Shown here: piece after piece, positions 1 through 59,755 of the stretch
Layout: the number at the start of each line of letters is the position of its first letter
Position numbering within the stretch: the first letter of the stretch is position 1
From: Prototheca cutis
Lineage: Eukaryota > Chlorophyta > Trebouxiophyceae > Chlorellales > Chlorellaceae
Length of the DNA stretch: 64,000 nucleotides
Direction: 5' to 3'
NCBI GenBank assembly: GCA_002897115.2
Contig: BCIH01000002.1
Location: 1,741,178 to 1,805,177, forward strand
Translations under genes and position numbers: made by a program
The notes under the pieces: generated by a model
What the model saw: only the letters and a program-made list of their open reading frames with translations
The model's database searches: none
What the model was told of the DNA's origin: nothing

Positions 1-168
1 CAAAGTCTCCAATGACGAGAAAGGCCGTGCGCCCACTGACGTTGCCGGTGACCTTGCCCCCATGCCGGCGAATGAAATCTTCGGCTTCTTCCCGGCGCAG
101 CGAATCCAGCACGCCACTAATTACAAATGTCTTGCCAGTCAGACAGTCAGGGTGGCCCCTCGGAGTGG

Positions 169-256
<88 letters not shown>

Positions 257-1431
257 TGTGTGACCCGTGCCTGACAATCTCCGCTGTCACCACGACAACT
301 GGCTTGCCTTTTGGCCCGCGTGGGGAGGCTCGTCGGGGGCACGCTGAACGTACGCCGCCTCTGACATGAAGCTGAATTCCAGCGACTCCGAGGGTGGAAG
401 CAGCGCTGCAGCAGCGTCCACGGCCTGAATCGCCTTGAGAGCAGTGTCGTTCAACCCCGCCAGAGGACCCGTGACCGCAGGCGCCACCGTCTTTGTCTTG
501 GACACCTGTGGAGTGGAAGGGAATAAGGTATCGTGGCTCCAGAGAGAAGATGACGCCCTGCACCCCGCTGGGGCAGACGGGATTCATACTAGGCGGCCGG
601 TCATACCAAGCAGCTGGTCAACTGGCCCCGCAGACAGGCGCACCTAGAACCCTCGTCTCACTCATACAAGGAGGGAAGATCCTTACCGGTGGAGAGGCGG
701 CGACAGTCTGTATGGTGGCAGCACCCACGGCTGCAGCGACCTTTCCCTGCGTAGTTTTTCTGGCCTTGGCCGCGGGTTCTCCAGCAAGCTCAGCGTCGCT
801 CTCGCTGCTCACCAAGCTTACTGCTGGCTGTGCATCAAATGACTTGTCCTCCTCGAAATCAGAGTCGGAGTCGATGCGCTTTGCACGTTTCTTGGAAGCG
901 CCAGGTGTGCCCTGCGGTCAAAGCACACGCCGCACAGGGTTTTAGAGGGCACTGGTTTCATGCATGCATGCAGAACGAATAAATGCGGCTCACCCACACG
1001 CAATAACAATGTACTCCATTTCATAATAATGTGATTCACTGCCGCATTTACCAACCCCCCTTGTCTTTCATCCAATCCCAACTGGGACCTTTGCTGGAGA
1101 GGGCTTGCCCTTTTTGGCATGTTTTGGATCGGGTGCCGGGGAGGTGGGCTCTGCAGGTTTTGCTGCTGGCGTCTCCGAACTCGGCCTCTTGCCATCTGCG
1201 CAGATGACATGGTGATCAATGTAGCCCAGGATCATCGATGCATGAGGGTAAAGAGTCATCAAACCCCACAGCACAGGCGGCGTCACAAGCATGCACTCCC
1301 CATCTCAGACTTCCCAATGGACCTCCCGACCTCATGAACGTCCTGCACCAGCAATCCAATTTTCCACACCCACCTTCAGTCTTGGTGGGGCCCCTGCGCC
1401 CCCCGAGCAGGAAAGCCCGGATGTCCTGCAT
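1..1431 (-). CDS. RFC1: Replication factor C subunit 1 (N-terminal part, runs off the window)
   Basis: Large subunit of the RFC clamp loader, which opens PCNA at primer-template junctions; nuclear. Five exons can be read on the minus strand: 1431-1374, 1195-1089, 911-687, 505 to about 310, and about 165 to 1, with phases agreeing for the first four. The start MQDIRAFLLGG resembles the RFC1 N-terminus, which carries the PCNA-binding region. A Lys/Pro-rich stretch and an acidic patch (DSDSDFEED, exon 3) follow, then the BRCT domain beginning LTGKTFVISGVLDSL and continuing EEAEDFIRRHGGKVTGNVS. The AAA+ ATPase and C-terminal domains lie outside the window. The intron before the BRCT exon is largely a CA repeat. 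I am confident of the family; the exon 4 donor is uncertain because two phase-compatible sites exist. Confidence 0.85.
171..254. repeat. (TG)42 microsatellite in RFC1 intron
   Basis: Uninterrupted TG dinucleotides, followed by a few imperfect units to 262. On the minus strand this is a CA tract running up to the acceptor of the BRCT exon of RFC1, so it replaces a normal polypyrimidine tract. Confidence 0.97.
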
Positions 1432-30823: not shown

Positions 30824-32787
30824 ATGCCCATGTCCAAATTCGATCGCAGCATATGCTATGTGGGCGCCACCCCAACGGTCGGTCGCGGGTCCCCGCCACC
30901 CCCTTTTGCTGCAGCGGTGGCCAACAGCACTGCGAGCATCGCACCTCGGCCCCTGGTGACTGGCAGGCCCTCGTGTGCCCGCCCACGCCTGAATCGGAAG
31001 GTACGCCCACCAGTCCGTTAAGGTCGATGGGCGGGGTGCCGCGCAACCGGGGTGTCGAGGCACTGAGGCCCCTGGGGCTGCTGGGTGCTGAGACTGTCCT
31101 GCACTGCAGCAGGGGTGGCTCATTCTCCCTGGAAGCCCTACCACGCATGCAATTGAATCCTCAGGTTGTCAGACGACACGGCATGAGGCTACAACACCAA
31201 CCCCCCCCCCCTTGCAGGCACTCCAACCCAGGGCCACTGCACAGCTGGACCGGGATGTGGCTAGTATCCTCAACTTGACGAATGGCGCCCCCGAGGCCCG
31301 TCCTTCTGATGTCTCCAGGGTGAGTGTTTGGGTCGGATTTCGCTCGTTCATGGAGGGTGTGTGTGTGTGTGCATGCGTCTGGTGTGGTGGGGCTGGTGAC
31401 TGGGCGTATGCAGCTCCGTTGCTGACATCCACGCACAGAAACGCTCAGACGCACCCACAAAAATAACTCACAGACGGTGCTGGGGATCATTCTCGGGGGC
31501 GGTGCTGGTTCGCGGCTGTACCCCCTGACGAAGCAGCGGGCGAAGCCTGCGGTGCCGCTGGGAGCCAACTACCGGTTGATCGACATTCCCGTGTCCAACT
31601 GCATCAACTCTGGTGTGAACAAGATTTACTGCCTGACGCAGTTCAACTCTGCGAGTCTGAACCGTCACCTGAGCCAGGCGTACAACAGCAACATCGGGGG
31701 CTACTCTTCCCGCGGCTTCGTGGAGGTGCTGGCGGCCAGCCAGACCACGACGCAGAAGAACTGGTTCCAGGGCACGGCTGACGCGGTGCGGCAGTACCTG
31801 TGGTTGTTTGAGGAGGCGACGCGTGGCGGGGTGGAGGATTACCTCATCCTGTCGGGCGACCACCTGTACCGCATGGACTACTCGGAATTTGTTGCCGCGC
31901 ACCGCCGGGCAGGGGCCGACATCACGGTCGCGGCGCTGCCGTGTACGGAGAAGGAGGCCAGCGCATTTGGGCTGATGAAGATCGACGACGGCGGTCGCAT
32001 CCTGGAGTTCGCTGAGAAGCCAAAGGGCGACGCGCTGGCGGCGATGAAGGTCGACACCACGGTCCTGGGTCTCGAGGCGAGCGCGGCGAAGAAGAAGCCC
32101 TACATCGCGTCCATGGGCATTTACCTGTGCAAGGCTGCGGTCATGCACCAGCTGCTGACGGAGAGTTTCGTCAAGGAGAACGACTTTGGCAGCGACATCA
32201 TCCCGGGGGCCAAGGACCTGGGCATGCACGTGCAGGCGCACCTGTTCAAGGGCTACTGGGAGGACATCGGGACCATCCGTGCGTTCTACGAGGCCAACTT
32301 GGGTCTAACCGACAGCCCGAACCCGAACTTTTCGTTTTACGACAAGGACGCGCCGATCTACACCATGTCGCGCTTCCTGCCCCCCTGCAAGGTGCTTTCG
32401 GCCGAGGTGGAGGCGTCCATCCTGGGCGACGGCTGCACGGTCAGCCAGGGCTCACGCATCGTGCACAGCGTGATTGGCCTGCGCTCGCGCATCGGGCAGG
32501 ACTGCCTGGTGGAGGACACGCTGCTCATGGGCGCCGACTACTACGAGCAGGGCGCGGAGCTGGAGGAGTGCGAGCGCATCTCCAAGTGCGTGCCCATCGG
32601 TGTGGGGTCGGGGTCGCACATCAAGGGCGCCATCGTCGATAAGAACGCCCGCATCGGCCGGTTCTGCAAGATCATCAACGTCGACGGCGTCGAAGAGGCA
32701 AACGCCGAGTCCAAGGGGTATGTCATCCGCGACGGCGTCATCGTCATCATCAAGGACGCCACCATCGACGATGGCACCATCATTTAA
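30824..32787 (+). CDS. APS1: ADP-glucose pyrophosphorylase small (catalytic) subunit, plastid
   Basis: Makes ADP-glucose from glucose-1-phosphate and ATP, the committed step of starch synthesis in the plastid; works as a heterotetramer with the large subunit. Exons 30824-31000, 31218-31319 and 31474-32787 are in phase and give about 530 residues. Exon 1 is rich in Ser, Pro, Ala and Arg, a chloroplast transit peptide. The core starts [18 protein letters not shown], with [20 protein letters not shown], the catalytic Asp in [10 protein letters not shown], the glucose-1-phosphate Lys in FAEKPKGD and the left-handed beta-helix C-terminus (IVDKNARIG). Small-subunit traits include [19 protein letters not shown] and GADYYE. 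A second ATG at 30830 is an alternative start. Confidence 0.93.
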
Positions 32788-35273: not shown

Positions 35274-38200
35274 ATGATTCATCGAATCCATCTGCAGGCG
35301 CTGTTCCTGGCGCTGCTGGCGGGGCCTTGGGCCAGCTTGGCAGAGCCGGCCAGCGGGGCTGGCACTTCCGCCCAGGGCGATGCCCCGCTGTCTCTGGCGG
35401 AGAGGCAATACCAAAAGGCCATAGACATCAGGCAAGGGTGATCTTGATTGCGTTGGAGTTGGCCTGACTGGGTTCTTTTTCGTCTGGGCGGCAGTGGAGC
35501 TCGCAGGGCGGGGGATCGGCCGTGCGTCATGGGCCTTTGCCGCGTGCGTCACGTGAAGATGCCAGCACATCCCCCCTGGGGCCCCCCCACCCCCCCACAC
35601 ACACACACTCACCATGCAAATCTGCAGAGACTCGGAGAACCCCAGCCCCGAGGACTTGACCAAGGCGGTCAACCTCCTCATGGCCGCAGCTGGCATCGAC
35701 GCTATCGAGCTCGGCTGGGGAGTGCATGGTGTTAGTGGGGATAAAAACACAGCGAGTCACGGCAGTGGCTCTGGAGACGGAGGAAATGCAGAGGGCAAGG
35801 CCGACGACGGTACGGCGAGTCCCCGTGCAGCCGGGCCTGCCCCCTTTCTGACGGCCGATGACGTCATCATCACGCCGGCGGACGCCCCATCAGACTCCAA
35901 AGTGGACCCGGCAGTGCTGGAGGCGCTGCGGGAGCTGGTGCTGGTGTACTTGGAAGGCGACGGCGTCCCACTCAACCCGGCCATTGCCGAAGCGCTGCTG
36001 AGGCGCCTGGCGGCCGCTGGGTCCGCAGAGGCTACAGCCGACCTGGGCCTGCACGCGGCGCTGGGCATCAAGCTCGTGGGCCCCGGGACGCGGGGTGCGC
36101 TGTTTGCCCTGGGGTTACCGGAGCCCGCGGCGGCGCTGGCGCGGTACTACGCGGCGGCCCGCGGCGGCGACGCCGCGGCGCAAATGGCACTGGGTTTCCG
36201 GCACCTGCACGGCCTGGGCGTGCCACGCGATTGCCGTGCCGCGGCGCTGTACTATGGCCCCGCCGCGGCCACGGCCGCGGCGCTGGCGGCCGAGGGCCGG
36301 GGCGCGGGAGGTGCCGCGCCGCGGCGGCCTCTGCGCCTGGCCGCGGCGCCCGGCGCCGACCACCACCACCACGGGCCCACAGTTAGCCTAGAGCAGGAGG
36401 TCCTGCACTACCAGTGGTTTGCGGACTTTGGGCACGCCGATGCCGCGCGCGCGCTGGCCCTGGCGCTGGCCGAAGCCGGGGGCGGCGCGGGCGACGACGC
36501 CCGGGCAGCGGCCTACCTCCGCCAGGCCGCCGACGCCGGTGACCTGGACGCCGCGGCGCGCCTGGGCCATGCATACGCGGGCGGCGTTGGCGTGCCGGCC
36601 GACAACGCCACCGCGCTGTCCTGGTTCAACAAAGCCGCCGAAAAAGGTATTGTTTTCATTTTGGGGGAATGCGGCGTCGTCCCCGGCGAGGTTTTGCCTT
36701 GTCCCCTGCCTTTCGGTGACCATCTTCCCACATTCTCCGAGCAGCGCCGACCCCACCCCTCCCATCAACCATTGCTCAATGCCCAGGCCATCCCAGTGGC
36801 CTGCTGGGCCTGGGCATCATGCACCTGCAGGGCCGGGGCGTGCCGCAGTCGCACGAGCGGGCCAAGCGCGCGTTCAGCCAGGCGCTGGAGATTGGGTCCA
36901 TGGCCGGCGGGCACTGGGCGGGCCAGGCCGAGGCGCACTTTTACCTCGGTGGGTGTGGAGGGATGTCGGGGGTGTGTGTGGGGGGGGGGGGCTTTCCCTT
37001 TTCTCTTTTGTCTGGGGGGCCAGGGCTAGGCTTAGGGTTTGTTTTCCAAGGCATGCACGCACACATGCGGTCCTGCAAAACAGCAGTGGGGCAGAAAGCC
37101 AAAAGATTTTTGTTTGAGGGAGGTTCAAGTCCATCGTGTTAACCACTCCACCACAGCAGCGTGACGGGGAAATACGTCCCTGGGATTTTTGTTTTCAGGG
37201 AGCGCACTGTGTTTTTCTTTGCCACAACAGCAGAACGTGTCGCTGCCGGCAGGATTCGAACCTGCGCGGGTTTCCCCAATGGATGACTGAACTCGCATCG
37301 TCATGGCGCGAAAGGCATTAATCTCATCATTTCTAGCCCAGCCCGATCTCGAGGCTCTCATGTCAGCTTTGTCATCATTGCTCGGACACACAATGAATGG
37401 ATCAATGAATGAATGAAATCGCGTCCACCACCCATCAATCAACCCCATGTGCTGTTCAACCACCCGGCAACCCAACCCCCGTTCTCTTGCTCAGGCATGA
37501 TGTCGCTGCGGGGCTGGGCCGGCAGTGTGGAACTGGGCCGCGCAGCATCGCACCTGGAAGCTGCAGCGCGGCGTGGCCACCTTTTGGCAGGCTACAACCT
37601 TGCCATGCTTCACCTGGGTGGGCACACGGCCTCGGCCGCGGCGTGCGCCGAGGGCGTGGCCCTGCTCAAGGACGTCGCCGAGCGGGGCTGGCCGCTGCTT
37701 GAGGAGGCAGCAGAAGACTGGCGGGCGGGCGAGACGGCCTGGGCCCTGCTCAACTGGCTCAAGGCCGCGGAGATGGGGTACGAGCCCGCGCAGGGCAACG
37801 CCGCCTGGATGCTTGAAGCCGGCTACGGAGTTGAACTGTTTAATGAGCATGACGATGATGATGCCGGTAGAAGTGGTGTTCGTGGTCAAGATCAAGGAGA
37901 CGGCGACAACGCTGGTGAGGGGGAAAGCAGTGCTCCTGCTCCCACCACCATGGGCAATGACCGGCTCGCGGCGCTGGCGTTGGACTTGCATCGGCGTGCT
38001 GCGGCACAGGGCAGCGTGACGGCACTGCGCGCGGTGGGCGACGCGCAGTGGTATGGCCGGGGGACCGCGCGAGACGCCGCAGCGGCGGCGGCGACGTACG
38101 CGGCGGCAGCTGCGCGGCGCGATGGCCAGTCGGCCTTCAACCTCGGGCTGCTGTATGCCGCAGGCGTGGGCGTGCCGCGGGACCCCCACCTTGCGAGGCG

Positions 38201-39107
38201 GCACCTCGACGCTTCGCGCGGGTCGGCGCCCGGGGCCGGGATCGCAGCTGCAGTAGCATTGGCTATGCTGGACTTTGCTGAATGGTATGCAAAACGTGTC
38301 GAGCCAAGACTTCCGGTGGGGATTGCGGAAGGCTTGCTCGGATTCGCGACGGCGTGGACCCGGCCCGGGGTGGTGGGTACATTCCCACACGGTTCGGGGA
38401 AGCCATCACCAGCGGGCATCGGGTTGTCCCCGCTGGCGCGGCTGTTCTCGCCGTCAACAGATGCTGCGGTCGACGCCGCTGCCGAGCTCACGCTGACGGC
38501 AGTGCTCATGGCCGGGGCGGCGCTGATGCTGGCCTGGCGCGTGCGTGGCGTCATGCGCGAACAAGGCGTCGACGTGCGAGATGTGTTTTGGCCTCGTCTG
38601 CGGGATGCACCGCAGGCGGGGGGTGTCGAGCGCCGGGACGGCGGGAGAGATGCCAGACCGCCAGTGGGTGGCGGCGGTGGTGCTCCCCAACAACGCCGTC
38701 CCCTTGATGCGGACCCACGAGCAGCGGAAGCTGCCGGGGATGTGCTGCAAGGCCAGGCCGGAGGTGTGCCGCACGAGCCGGAGCCTGCATCGGCGATCCC
38801 CTCGGCAGTCACGGGGCCAAATGCTGGGCTGCAGCCCCCGGCAGTGGAAGCCACCACTTTGGCACAGGAACATCTGGTGGCCGCTCCGGAGCGACGCAGC
38901 CGCGTGCAAGATGTCGAGCCCGCGGCATCAGAGGCCGAGGCGGGAGGGGCGCCGTCGGAGCAGCAGAACACGCCGCCGACACAAGAGCCCACGCCACAGG
39001 AAAGGAGTCGAGCTGCAGCGGAGGAGCGGGAAGGCTGCACAACCGAAGGAAGTGCCGGCAATGCCACAGCACAAGCAGTCGCGCCAGAGACCGATGAGGC
39101 CCCGTGA
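35274..39107 (+). CDS. HRD3: HRD3/SEL1L-type Sel1-repeat protein of ER-associated degradation
   Basis: ER-membrane partner of the HRD1 ubiquitin ligase that recruits misfolded glycoproteins. Exon 1 (35274 to about 35436) encodes a signal peptide (MIHRIHLQALFLALLAGPWA). Others: about 35630-36646, 36787-36948 and 37495-39107. Sel1 repeats run through exons 2-4: AAQMALGFRHLHGLGVPRD, AAARLGHAYAGGVGVPADN, GLLGLGIMHLQGRGVPQSHE, GHLLAGYNLAMLHLGG, SAFNLGLLYAAGVGVPRDP. A C-terminal hydrophobic helix (LTAVLMAGAALMLAWRV) would anchor it, followed by a long acidic, low-complexity cytosolic tail of about 190 residues that is unusual for the family. Exon 1 can end at a GT donor or a GC donor, both in phase. 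The third intron carries an antisense tRNA gene. Confidence 0.85.
37124..37284 (-). tRNA. Circularly permuted tRNA-Ser(UGA), inside an intron of HRD3
   Basis: On the minus strand the 3' half comes first (37284-37241), then an 80-base intervening sequence (37240-37161), then the 5' half (37160-37124). Acceptor strands GCTGCTG (37160-37154) and CGGCAGC (37248-37242) pair over 7 bp with one G-U. The D stem is GTG/CAC (37151-37149, 37138-37136). The anticodon stem ATGGA (37134-37130) pairs with TCCAT (37283-37279), and the anticodon TGA is at 37127-37125. The variable arm has a GGG/CCC stem as in serine tRNAs, and the T arm is GCAGG-TTCGAAT-CCTGC. The B box (37262-37252) precedes the A box (37153-37143). 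A TTTT terminator lies at 37104-37101. Leader 37292-37288 pairs with 37127-37123, giving a bulge-helix-bulge-like junction. No CCA is encoded. In known permuted tRNAs the precursor is circularised at this junction, then cut by RNase P and RNase Z. Confidence 0.9.
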
Positions 39108-59438: not shown

Positions 59439-59540
59439 CGCCGATGCCGGGAATCGAACCCGGATCACGTGCGTCCCGTAGGACTGAGCACCACAGTACC
59501 AGTTGACAGGCACGTATACTGACCGTTATACTACATCGAC
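59439..59540 (-). tRNA. tRNA-Asp(GUC) with a 30-base intron
   Basis: Acceptor strands GTCGATG (59540-59534) and CATCGGC (59446-59440) pair with one G-U. The D arm contains AACGGTCAGTAT. Anticodon stem CGTGC/GCACG surrounds loop C-T-GTC-A, and the frame is broken one base 3' of the anticodon (after position 37) by an intron of about 30 bases. T arm CCGGG-TTCGATT-CCCGG. A T-rich terminator follows. Most eukaryotic tRNA-Asp genes lack introns. Confidence 0.88.
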
Positions 59541-59637
59541 CTTGTGTTGTTGGGCGCCAACGGAATCAGCTCTTTAGTACCGTGCATTATTGCCAGCAGA
59601 AAATGCAGGGAAAAGGGAAAAAGTCAAAAACTTGAGA

Positions 59638-59755
59638 GGGGGTAACCGAGAATCGAACTCGGGACCACTCGCAATTTGCGAAGTTTCATTCCGTGTGACC
59701 GGAATCGAATGGCACTTCTCCCTAAGCGAGTATTATACCACTAAACCATTACCCC
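59638..59755 (-). tRNA. tRNA-Pro(AGG) with a long (about 45-base) intron
   Basis: Acceptor strands GGGGTAA (59755-59749) and TTACCCC (59645-59639) pair perfectly. The D loop has TTTAGTGGTATAAT. Anticodon stem CTCGC/GCGAG with loop TT-AGG-G, then an intron of about 45 bases after position 37. T arm CCGAG-TTCGATT-CTCGG. A T-run follows downstream. Lies 98 bases from the tRNA-Asp gene on the same strand. Confidence 0.85.

Follow-up and report, generated by a model that had tools for sequence, protein, structure and literature searches.

How can a serine tRNA be encoded by DNA in which the 3' half of the molecule lies upstream of the 5' half? This question is raised by a short locus in a stretch of 64,000 nt from the trebouxiophyte alga Prototheca cutis (contig BCIH01000002.1, positions 1,741,178 to 1,805,177; hereafter the window, whose numbering is used throughout unless a locus is named). 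A first-pass annotation, made from the letters alone, had read the locus as a circularly permuted tRNA-Ser(UGA) gene. Our analysis suggests that it is very probably a functional nuclear gene, circularly permuted at 37/38 (type II), and one of a large set in P. cutis, judging from the order of its halves, the cloverleaf that they form after rotation, covariation in the stems that join them, the placement of a T-run and the surrounding intron. The features of the locus are as follows.

37241..37284, minus strand: 3' half of tRNA-Ser(UGA) (positions 38-73), comprising the 3' strand of the anticodon stem, the variable arm, the T arm, the 3' strand of the acceptor stem and the discriminator G
37252-37262, minus strand: box B, in the T arm of the 3' half
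37161..37240, minus strand: intervening sequence, 80 nt, with no T4 run
37194..37233, minus strand: possible degenerate duplicate of the 5' half within the intervening sequence, from a local alignment
37124..37160, minus strand: 5' half of tRNA-Ser(UGA) (positions 1-37), comprising the 5' strand of the acceptor stem, the D arm, the 5' strand of the anticodon stem and the loop to A37
37143-37153, minus strand: box A, in the D arm of the 5' half, placed by counting
37125-37127, minus strand: anticodon TGA, in the 5' half
37288..37292, minus strand: leader GTTCA, candidate BHB-like helix beside the anticodon stem, from the fold
37123..37127, minus strand: TGAAC, partner of the leader helix, positions 34-37 plus the first trailer base
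37101..37104, minus strand: candidate terminator for Pol III, the first T4 run past the 5' half (offset 19)
36787..36948, plus strand: SEL1L/HRD3 exon upstream of the tRNA-bearing intron (open spliced frame; protein match)
36949..37494, plus strand: GT-AG intron of the SEL1L/HRD3 homologue, 546 nt, carrying the tRNA gene antisense (open spliced frame; protein match)
37495..39107, plus strand: SEL1L/HRD3 coding stretch downstream of the tRNA-bearing intron, frame open to the stop (frame; protein match)

The two halves lie on the same strand, swapped and 80 nt apart, with coordinates exactly as first described, and each is present as a single copy in the window. They meet at 37/38, the canonical site of introns in eukaryotic tRNAs, and permutation of this kind is termed type II in the 2014 review by Soma (PMC3978253). 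The encoded molecule is a class II tRNA; as annotated, its anticodon is TGA, its acceptor stem pairs at 7 of 7 positions with one G-U, and its anticodon stem at 5 of 5. The D stem pairs at 3/3 positions, the T stem at 5/5, the variable arm has 3 bp and the discriminator is G. Boxes B and A likewise stand in reversed order with a T-run behind them. The claim that the helices form only if the halves are swapped holds for the acceptor and anticodon stems, but not for the D, T and variable arms, each of which lies within one half and forms in either order. When the 81-mer was rotated, ARAGORN called it as tRNA-Ser(tga), and the native order gave no call, which speaks for a permuted gene.

Standard searches of the window returned no tRNA at all with ARAGORN without introns, and only conventional Asp and Pro genes at 59439-59755 with Rfam and with ARAGORN allowing introns of up to 300 nt. 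The reading of the Ser gene as a conventional intron-bearing tRNA was rejected, as ARAGORN with introns called only these Asp and Pro genes. The latter are a tRNA-Asp(GTC) at 59439-59540 (minus strand; intron of 30 nt at the anticodon loop) and a tRNA-Pro(AGG) at 59638-59755 (minus strand; intron of 46 nt, also at the anticodon loop).

The annotated host gene was confirmed as well. Joining 36787-36948 to 37495 at the GT-AG borders retains a single open frame. The spliced protein (489-residue query) matched chains of 'Protein sel-1 homolog 1' over residues 1-317, spanning the splice junction, with an E value of 1e-54, and Hrd3 chains with an E value of about 2e-9. The open spliced frame and these matches therefore place the tRNA-Ser(UGA) gene antisense in the 546-nt intron of a SEL1L/HRD3 homologue. 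Elsewhere in the window, an ADP-glucose pyrophosphorylase exon (31426-32787) is 92% identical to the Auxenochlorella protein and 81% to that of Helicosporidium.

The first-pass annotation had held that the gene is essential if it is the only tRNA-Ser(UGA) gene. The genome searched comprised 19,886,974 bases in 23 contigs; the published assembly has 20,029,045 bases in 46 scaffolds (PMC11302234), of which about 0.7% lies outside the searched sequence. A BLAST-type genome search with the mature 81-mer returned only the two halves at the window site. A pattern for the 5' half of serine tRNAs, with 3 mismatches allowed, matched 7 genome places compared with 11 for the reversed control; three are serine tRNAs and four look like chance matches. 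All three serine tRNAs found are permuted, namely Ser(TGA) in the window, Ser(GCT) in locus L055 and Ser(CGA) in locus L056; between their halves lie 80, 11 and 9 nt, respectively. Thus, neither the mature-sequence search nor the 3-mismatch Ser pattern found a normal tRNA-Ser(UGA) gene. A genome search for the conventional tRNA family was also run, in which 63 of 246 candidates were scored. No gene for Ser(AGA) was found with the 3-mismatch Ser 5'-half pattern; a Ser(AGA) 5'-half pattern matched 16 places compared with 58 for the reversed control, and no tRNA was evident among them, judged on the 25 matched letters alone. A tRNA-Ser(AGA) with inosine at position 34 could also read UCA. Essentiality was overstated in view of this potential decoding by an inosine-34 Ser(AGA), although that gene was likewise not found.

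Chance resemblance was assessed with a scanner that requires the cloverleaf stems and invariant bases and considers junction 37/38 alone. It found one site in the window, the tRNA-Ser(UGA), and none in 100 dinucleotide shuffles of the window. No match was obtained in 3.58 million shuffled strand-bases (window plus loci examined), nor in 1.086 billion random strand-bases with the trinucleotide content of the window. When the three permuted Ser genes were aligned after rotation, 68 of 69 pair cells held standard pairs and both sides changed in 16 of 23 pairs. The pairs that join the halves (acceptor and anticodon stems) changed on both sides in 10 of 12 cases. This level of covariation was reached by none of 500 shuffles, and sliding the partners by 1-3 columns gave a maximum of 4/23. 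In this small sample (n = 3), the changes fall in the permutation-dependent stems, and the covariation appears to support the permuted structure.

Does the Ser gene stand alone? The box B motif GGTTCRANYCC occurs at 185 places in the genome (97 + 88), and the surrounding DNA was inspected at all of them: 30 places, 135 stretches and 2 more, with the remainder lying within loci from the tRNA or Ser-pattern searches, neighbouring stretches or the window. The two extra stretches contained no tRNA. Five further stretches were added via D-arm patterns. A relaxed version of the scanner, still limited to 37/38 junctions, detected 37 distinct permuted genes, including the window gene; three further loci (L048, L049 and L050) coincide with the window locus and were excluded before the count. 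After rotation, ARAGORN gave the matching isotype and anticodon for each of the 37 genes:

Permuted Ala, Arg and Asn genes: Ala(AGC) x3, Ala(TGC), Ala(CGC) x2; Arg(TCT), Arg(CCG), Arg(TCG); Asn(GTT) x2
Permuted Cys, Gln, Glu and Gly genes: Cys(GCA); Gln(CTG), Gln(TTG); Glu(CTC) x4; Gly(GCC) x4, Gly(CCC), Gly(TCC)
Permuted His, Ile, Leu and Pro genes: His(GTG); Ile(AAT) x2, Ile(TAT); Leu(AAG), Leu(TAA); Pro(TGG)
Permuted Ser, Thr and Val genes: Ser(GCT), Ser(CGA), Ser(TGA); Thr(AGT) x2; Val(TAC)

The conventional genes found numbered 18, 17 from the tRNA family search plus Leu(TAG):

Conventional Lys, Arg, Phe and Met genes: Lys CTT x2; Arg ACG x2, Arg CCT; Phe; initiator-like Met
Conventional Leu, Asp and Pro genes: Leu CAG x3, Leu CAA; Asp x3; Pro AGG x2, Pro CGG
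Conventional Leu(TAG), intron-bearing: locus L098

Permutation is the majority form among P. cutis tRNA genes in the searched sequence. Permuted genes make up 37 of the 55 found, and 31 of 45 in the less biased subset that carries box B GGTTCRANYCC (31 of 37 permuted and 14 of 18 conventional genes). Among the genes found, 25 anticodons occur only in permuted form, 10 plus Met only in conventional form, and none in both. Genes for Ser(AGA), Tyr, Trp, elongator Met, Lys(TTT), Val(AAC/CAC), Thr(TGT/CGT) and Glu(TTC) were found in neither class; a Trp pattern matched the genome at 0 places.

Several candidates were left out of these counts. A strict-scanner match in locus L008 (1543-1892) was rejected, as it consists of two conventional Leu(CAG) genes in tandem, and ARAGORN calls in loci L020, L045, L105 and L146 were judged doubtful and left uncounted. 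Locus L105 contains a tRNA-like sequence at 404-472 (plus strand) with no ARAGORN assignment. Locus L196 was kept out of the 37 because of its short T stem; at 90-173 (plus strand) it holds a permuted tRNA-like sequence with an acceptor stem of 7/7 (one G-U), an anticodon stem of 5/5 by eye and the apparent anticodon GGC, and it may be a pseudogene or an odd tRNA. In locus L096 (555-617, minus strand), the 3' part of a tRNA-Phe, from the anticodon on, adjoins a permuted Glu gene; no 5' half of this tRNA was seen in the 290 nt upstream.

The set was also searched with a covariance model, R1, derived from eight rotated conventional tRNAs of P. cutis with no permuted genes included. The model was run on 193 of the 197 sequence sources, with L009 and L048-L050 omitted as duplicates. 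Consistent with permuted genes, it recovered 33 of the 37 at more than 41 bits, with both ends exact in 32. Locus L071 scored 31.3 bits with one end off, and only partial matches were obtained for locus L114 (26.3 bits), the window gene (25.9 bits) and locus L008 (23.1 bits). In the window gene, R1 took a wrong stretch as the 5' half, which counts against a working gene; its place among the three worst fits is due to the long intervening sequence. The best other score, 35.9 at window positions 59504-59673, was rejected as an artefact of the adjoining conventional Pro and Asp genes that recurs in loci L012 and L014. The next scores elsewhere were 31.6 bits (locus L196) and 28.0 bits at a conventional gene.

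Signals expected outside the halves were compared across the 37 permuted genes. A run of at least four T starts 0-19 nt past the 5' half in all 37, and TTTT occurs in 1 of 37 intervening sequences, in 3 of 37 leaders when the last 25 nt are considered and in 11 of 37 when the last 60 nt are considered. The window Ser gene follows this pattern, with the T4 run at 37101-37104 and none between the halves. Its intervening sequence of 80 nt is the longest of the 37 (the others span 9-46 nt), which counts against a working gene. The DNA upstream of the 3' half was also inspected for a TATA-like element within 50 bp: over the 37 genes, the A+T content at -50 to -41 is 0.59 compared with 0.49-0.53 elsewhere in the 60 nt.

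The 5-bp pairing between leader and anticodon loop that had been proposed for the Ser gene does exist, between GTTCA (37288-37292) and TGAAC (37123-37127), but it is weak evidence alone, since equally good pairing arises with 14% of leaders after shuffling and with 18% of random leaders. Across the gene set, evidence for leader pairing was mixed, mostly positive. With one gene per anticodon, cognate leaders had a mean fold of -12.9 kcal/mol compared with -11.1 kcal/mol for exchanged leaders, and none of 500 exchanges was as good; with all genes, none of 200 exchanges was as good as cognate. The leader set folded better than shuffled leaders (KS p 0.0013; one gene per anticodon), but not significantly better than random 16-mers of the window (KS p 0.12), the window being richer in G+C. 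Exact complements of the anticodon were present in 7 of 25 leaders compared with 4.7 expected (p 0.18), which counts partly against pairing, while complements of positions 34-37 were present in 4 compared with 0.96 expected (p 0.014). The full precursor fold of the window gene was not convincing (z -1.76; 9 of 200 shuffles as good). Its unconstrained fold keeps 10 of the 17 enforced tRNA pairs, with the tRNA form 2.0 kcal/mol above the minimum, which also counts against.

Two places in the genome encode the endonuclease domain PF01974, an RtcB ligase gene is also present, and the pathway by which permuted tRNAs are processed is well documented for other algae (PMC3978253). With Cyanidioschyzon and prasinophytes as models, we infer that the Ser transcript is processed via a circle. 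RNA polymerase III would synthesise leader, 3' half, intervening sequence, 5' half and trailer as one transcript, in which the acceptor and anticodon stems would bring the two halves together. Next to the anticodon stem, the tRNA splicing endonuclease would then cleave at 37285/37284 on the leader side and at 37124/37123 on the trailer side, and a ligase would join A37 to A38 to give the circle. Finally, RNase P and tRNase Z would excise the 80-nt intervening piece, and CCA would be added.

Two routes to a permuted gene have been considered: a tandem duplication after which the outer halves are lost, and the reverse transcription of circular RNA (PMC3978253). In P. cutis, the permuted Pro(UGG) gene (locus L059, 395-475, minus strand) and the conventional Pro(CGG) gene (locus L016, 1501-1620, minus strand; intron of 48 nt) differ at a single mature nucleotide out of 72, which is the first base of the anticodon. 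This pair points to a very recent switch between gene forms. All four permuted Gly(GCC) genes share the same two halves, yet their intervening sequences differ considerably; conserved next to the junction are the ends of the leaders (CAGCTT or CAGTTT) and the beginning of the trailers (GCTG). The Gly(GCC) genes were seen in loci L109 (394-789), L111 and L115, with two of them about 315 nt apart.

The window gene itself may carry a trace of a second copy, and an extra 5' half has been described beside a permuted Cys gene in O. lucimarinus (PMC3978253). Within the first 47 nt of its intervening sequence, a 40-nt stretch (37233-37194) is colinear with positions 2-37 of the 5' half. The alignment scored 22, a value reached by 161 of 20000 dinucleotide shuffles. 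It was one of 18 tests, covering the nine genes with at least 20 nt of intervening sequence and both halves of each; the other 17 gave nothing. Models R1 and R2 both align 37194-37233 as a 5' half. Given the 161 of 20000 shuffles and the 18 tests, the case for a decayed second 5' half is no more than suggestive; if real, such a copy would account for this intervening sequence being the longest of the set.

This possible relic, together with the length of the intervening sequence, the non-significance of the leader pairing alone and the lack of a whole-gene fit with R1, fits a gene that was once permuted and has lost its processing, with UCA being read by another tRNA such as an inosine-34 Ser(AGA). 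However, all stems of the Ser gene are intact, a T-run follows the 5' half, and it is the sole Ser(UGA) gene found, with no Ser(AGA) gene found to replace it. We therefore regard a dead gene as improbable. Alternatively, the halves could be remnants of neighbouring conventional genes that each lack the other half, or could be joined in trans from two transcripts. Both search tools have been misled in this way, the strict scanner once by the tandem Leu(CAG) genes of locus L008 and R1 by the adjoining Pro and Asp genes of the window. Yet at the sensitivity of the BLAST-type search each Ser(UGA) half is single-copy in the genome, both halves share a strand and are separated by 80 nt that contain no T4 run, and their stems match each other, which leaves this explanation with very little probability. 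Misassembly of a normal tRNA-Ser gene, which had been named as a possible refutation and could be suspected in a short-read assembly (HiSeq 2500, 650 contigs in 46 scaffolds; PMC11302234), is very unlikely to the point of being negligible because 36 further genes are arranged alike, several as copies with different intervening sequences; moreover, there is no N between the halves, and permuted genes have been reported independently in Auxenochlorella (PMC12636532).

Beyond the working Ser(UGA) gene, we consider it likely that the permuted form is the normal form of nuclear tRNA genes in P. cutis, with about two-thirds of the genes permuted at 37/38, whole isoacceptor families found only in this form, and recent conversion indicated by the Pro pair (71 of 72 nt alike). 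If so, the tRNA splicing machinery and circular intermediates would underpin most decoding, most of the genes would escape routine tRNA annotation of these algae, and tRNA counts obtained in this group with standard programs may be inaccurate. A mostly permuted genome would also make the question of origin testable by comparing close relatives and paralogous pairs and by using a sister genus that can be transformed, and P. cutis would be an unusually favourable organism for studying how and why permuted genes arise.

Permuted tRNA genes had been something of a curiosity; a total of 34, spread over seven species, is given in the 2014 review, whose table lists Cyanidioschyzon as the richest genome (11 of 43 genes permuted; PMC3978253). 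Two permuted Ser genes have been described in a further nucleomorph (PMC4494063). The first-pass annotation knew of none in the lineage of P. cutis, which does not hold, as permuted tRNA genes have been reported in the sister genus Auxenochlorella. Strain UTEX 250-A is the closest relative for which we found such a report (Plant Cell 2025, PMC12636532); there, the tRNAscan-SE set was incomplete and permuted genes were then detected, and the main text states their existence and gives no number. For Prototheca itself, no report of permuted tRNA genes was found in the literature searched, to which most subscription papers did not belong. In P. wickerhamii, tRNAscan gave 64 tRNA genes, described as 'all tRNAs, except selenocysteine' (PMC7941945), which sits uneasily with the idea of a largely permuted set within the genus.

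The nearest counterparts of the Ser gene listed in the 2014 table are in prasinophytes, a different green class from the Trebouxiophyceae of P. cutis. There, permuted Ser(TGA) genes with the same junction occur in O. lucimarinus, O. tauri and Micromonas sp. RCC299, and the O. lucimarinus gene carries an additional intron at 27/28 (PMC3978253). These prasinophytes have 3-6 permuted genes per genome, whereas 37 were found in P. cutis, and their intervening sequences span 11-64 nt compared with 80 nt in the P. cutis Ser(UGA) gene, which is slightly beyond the range of 1-74 nt in the whole table (PMC3978253). Cyanidioschyzon merolae resembles P. cutis in the order of the halves and in the terminator past the 5' half, and the circular intermediate has been shown in that alga; its junctions lie at four positions, whereas the 37 genes of P. 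cutis come from a search of 37/38 only (PMC3978253). Genes of this kind are thus already known, and what is new in P. cutis seems to be their scale and the Pro(UGG)/Pro(CGG) pair.
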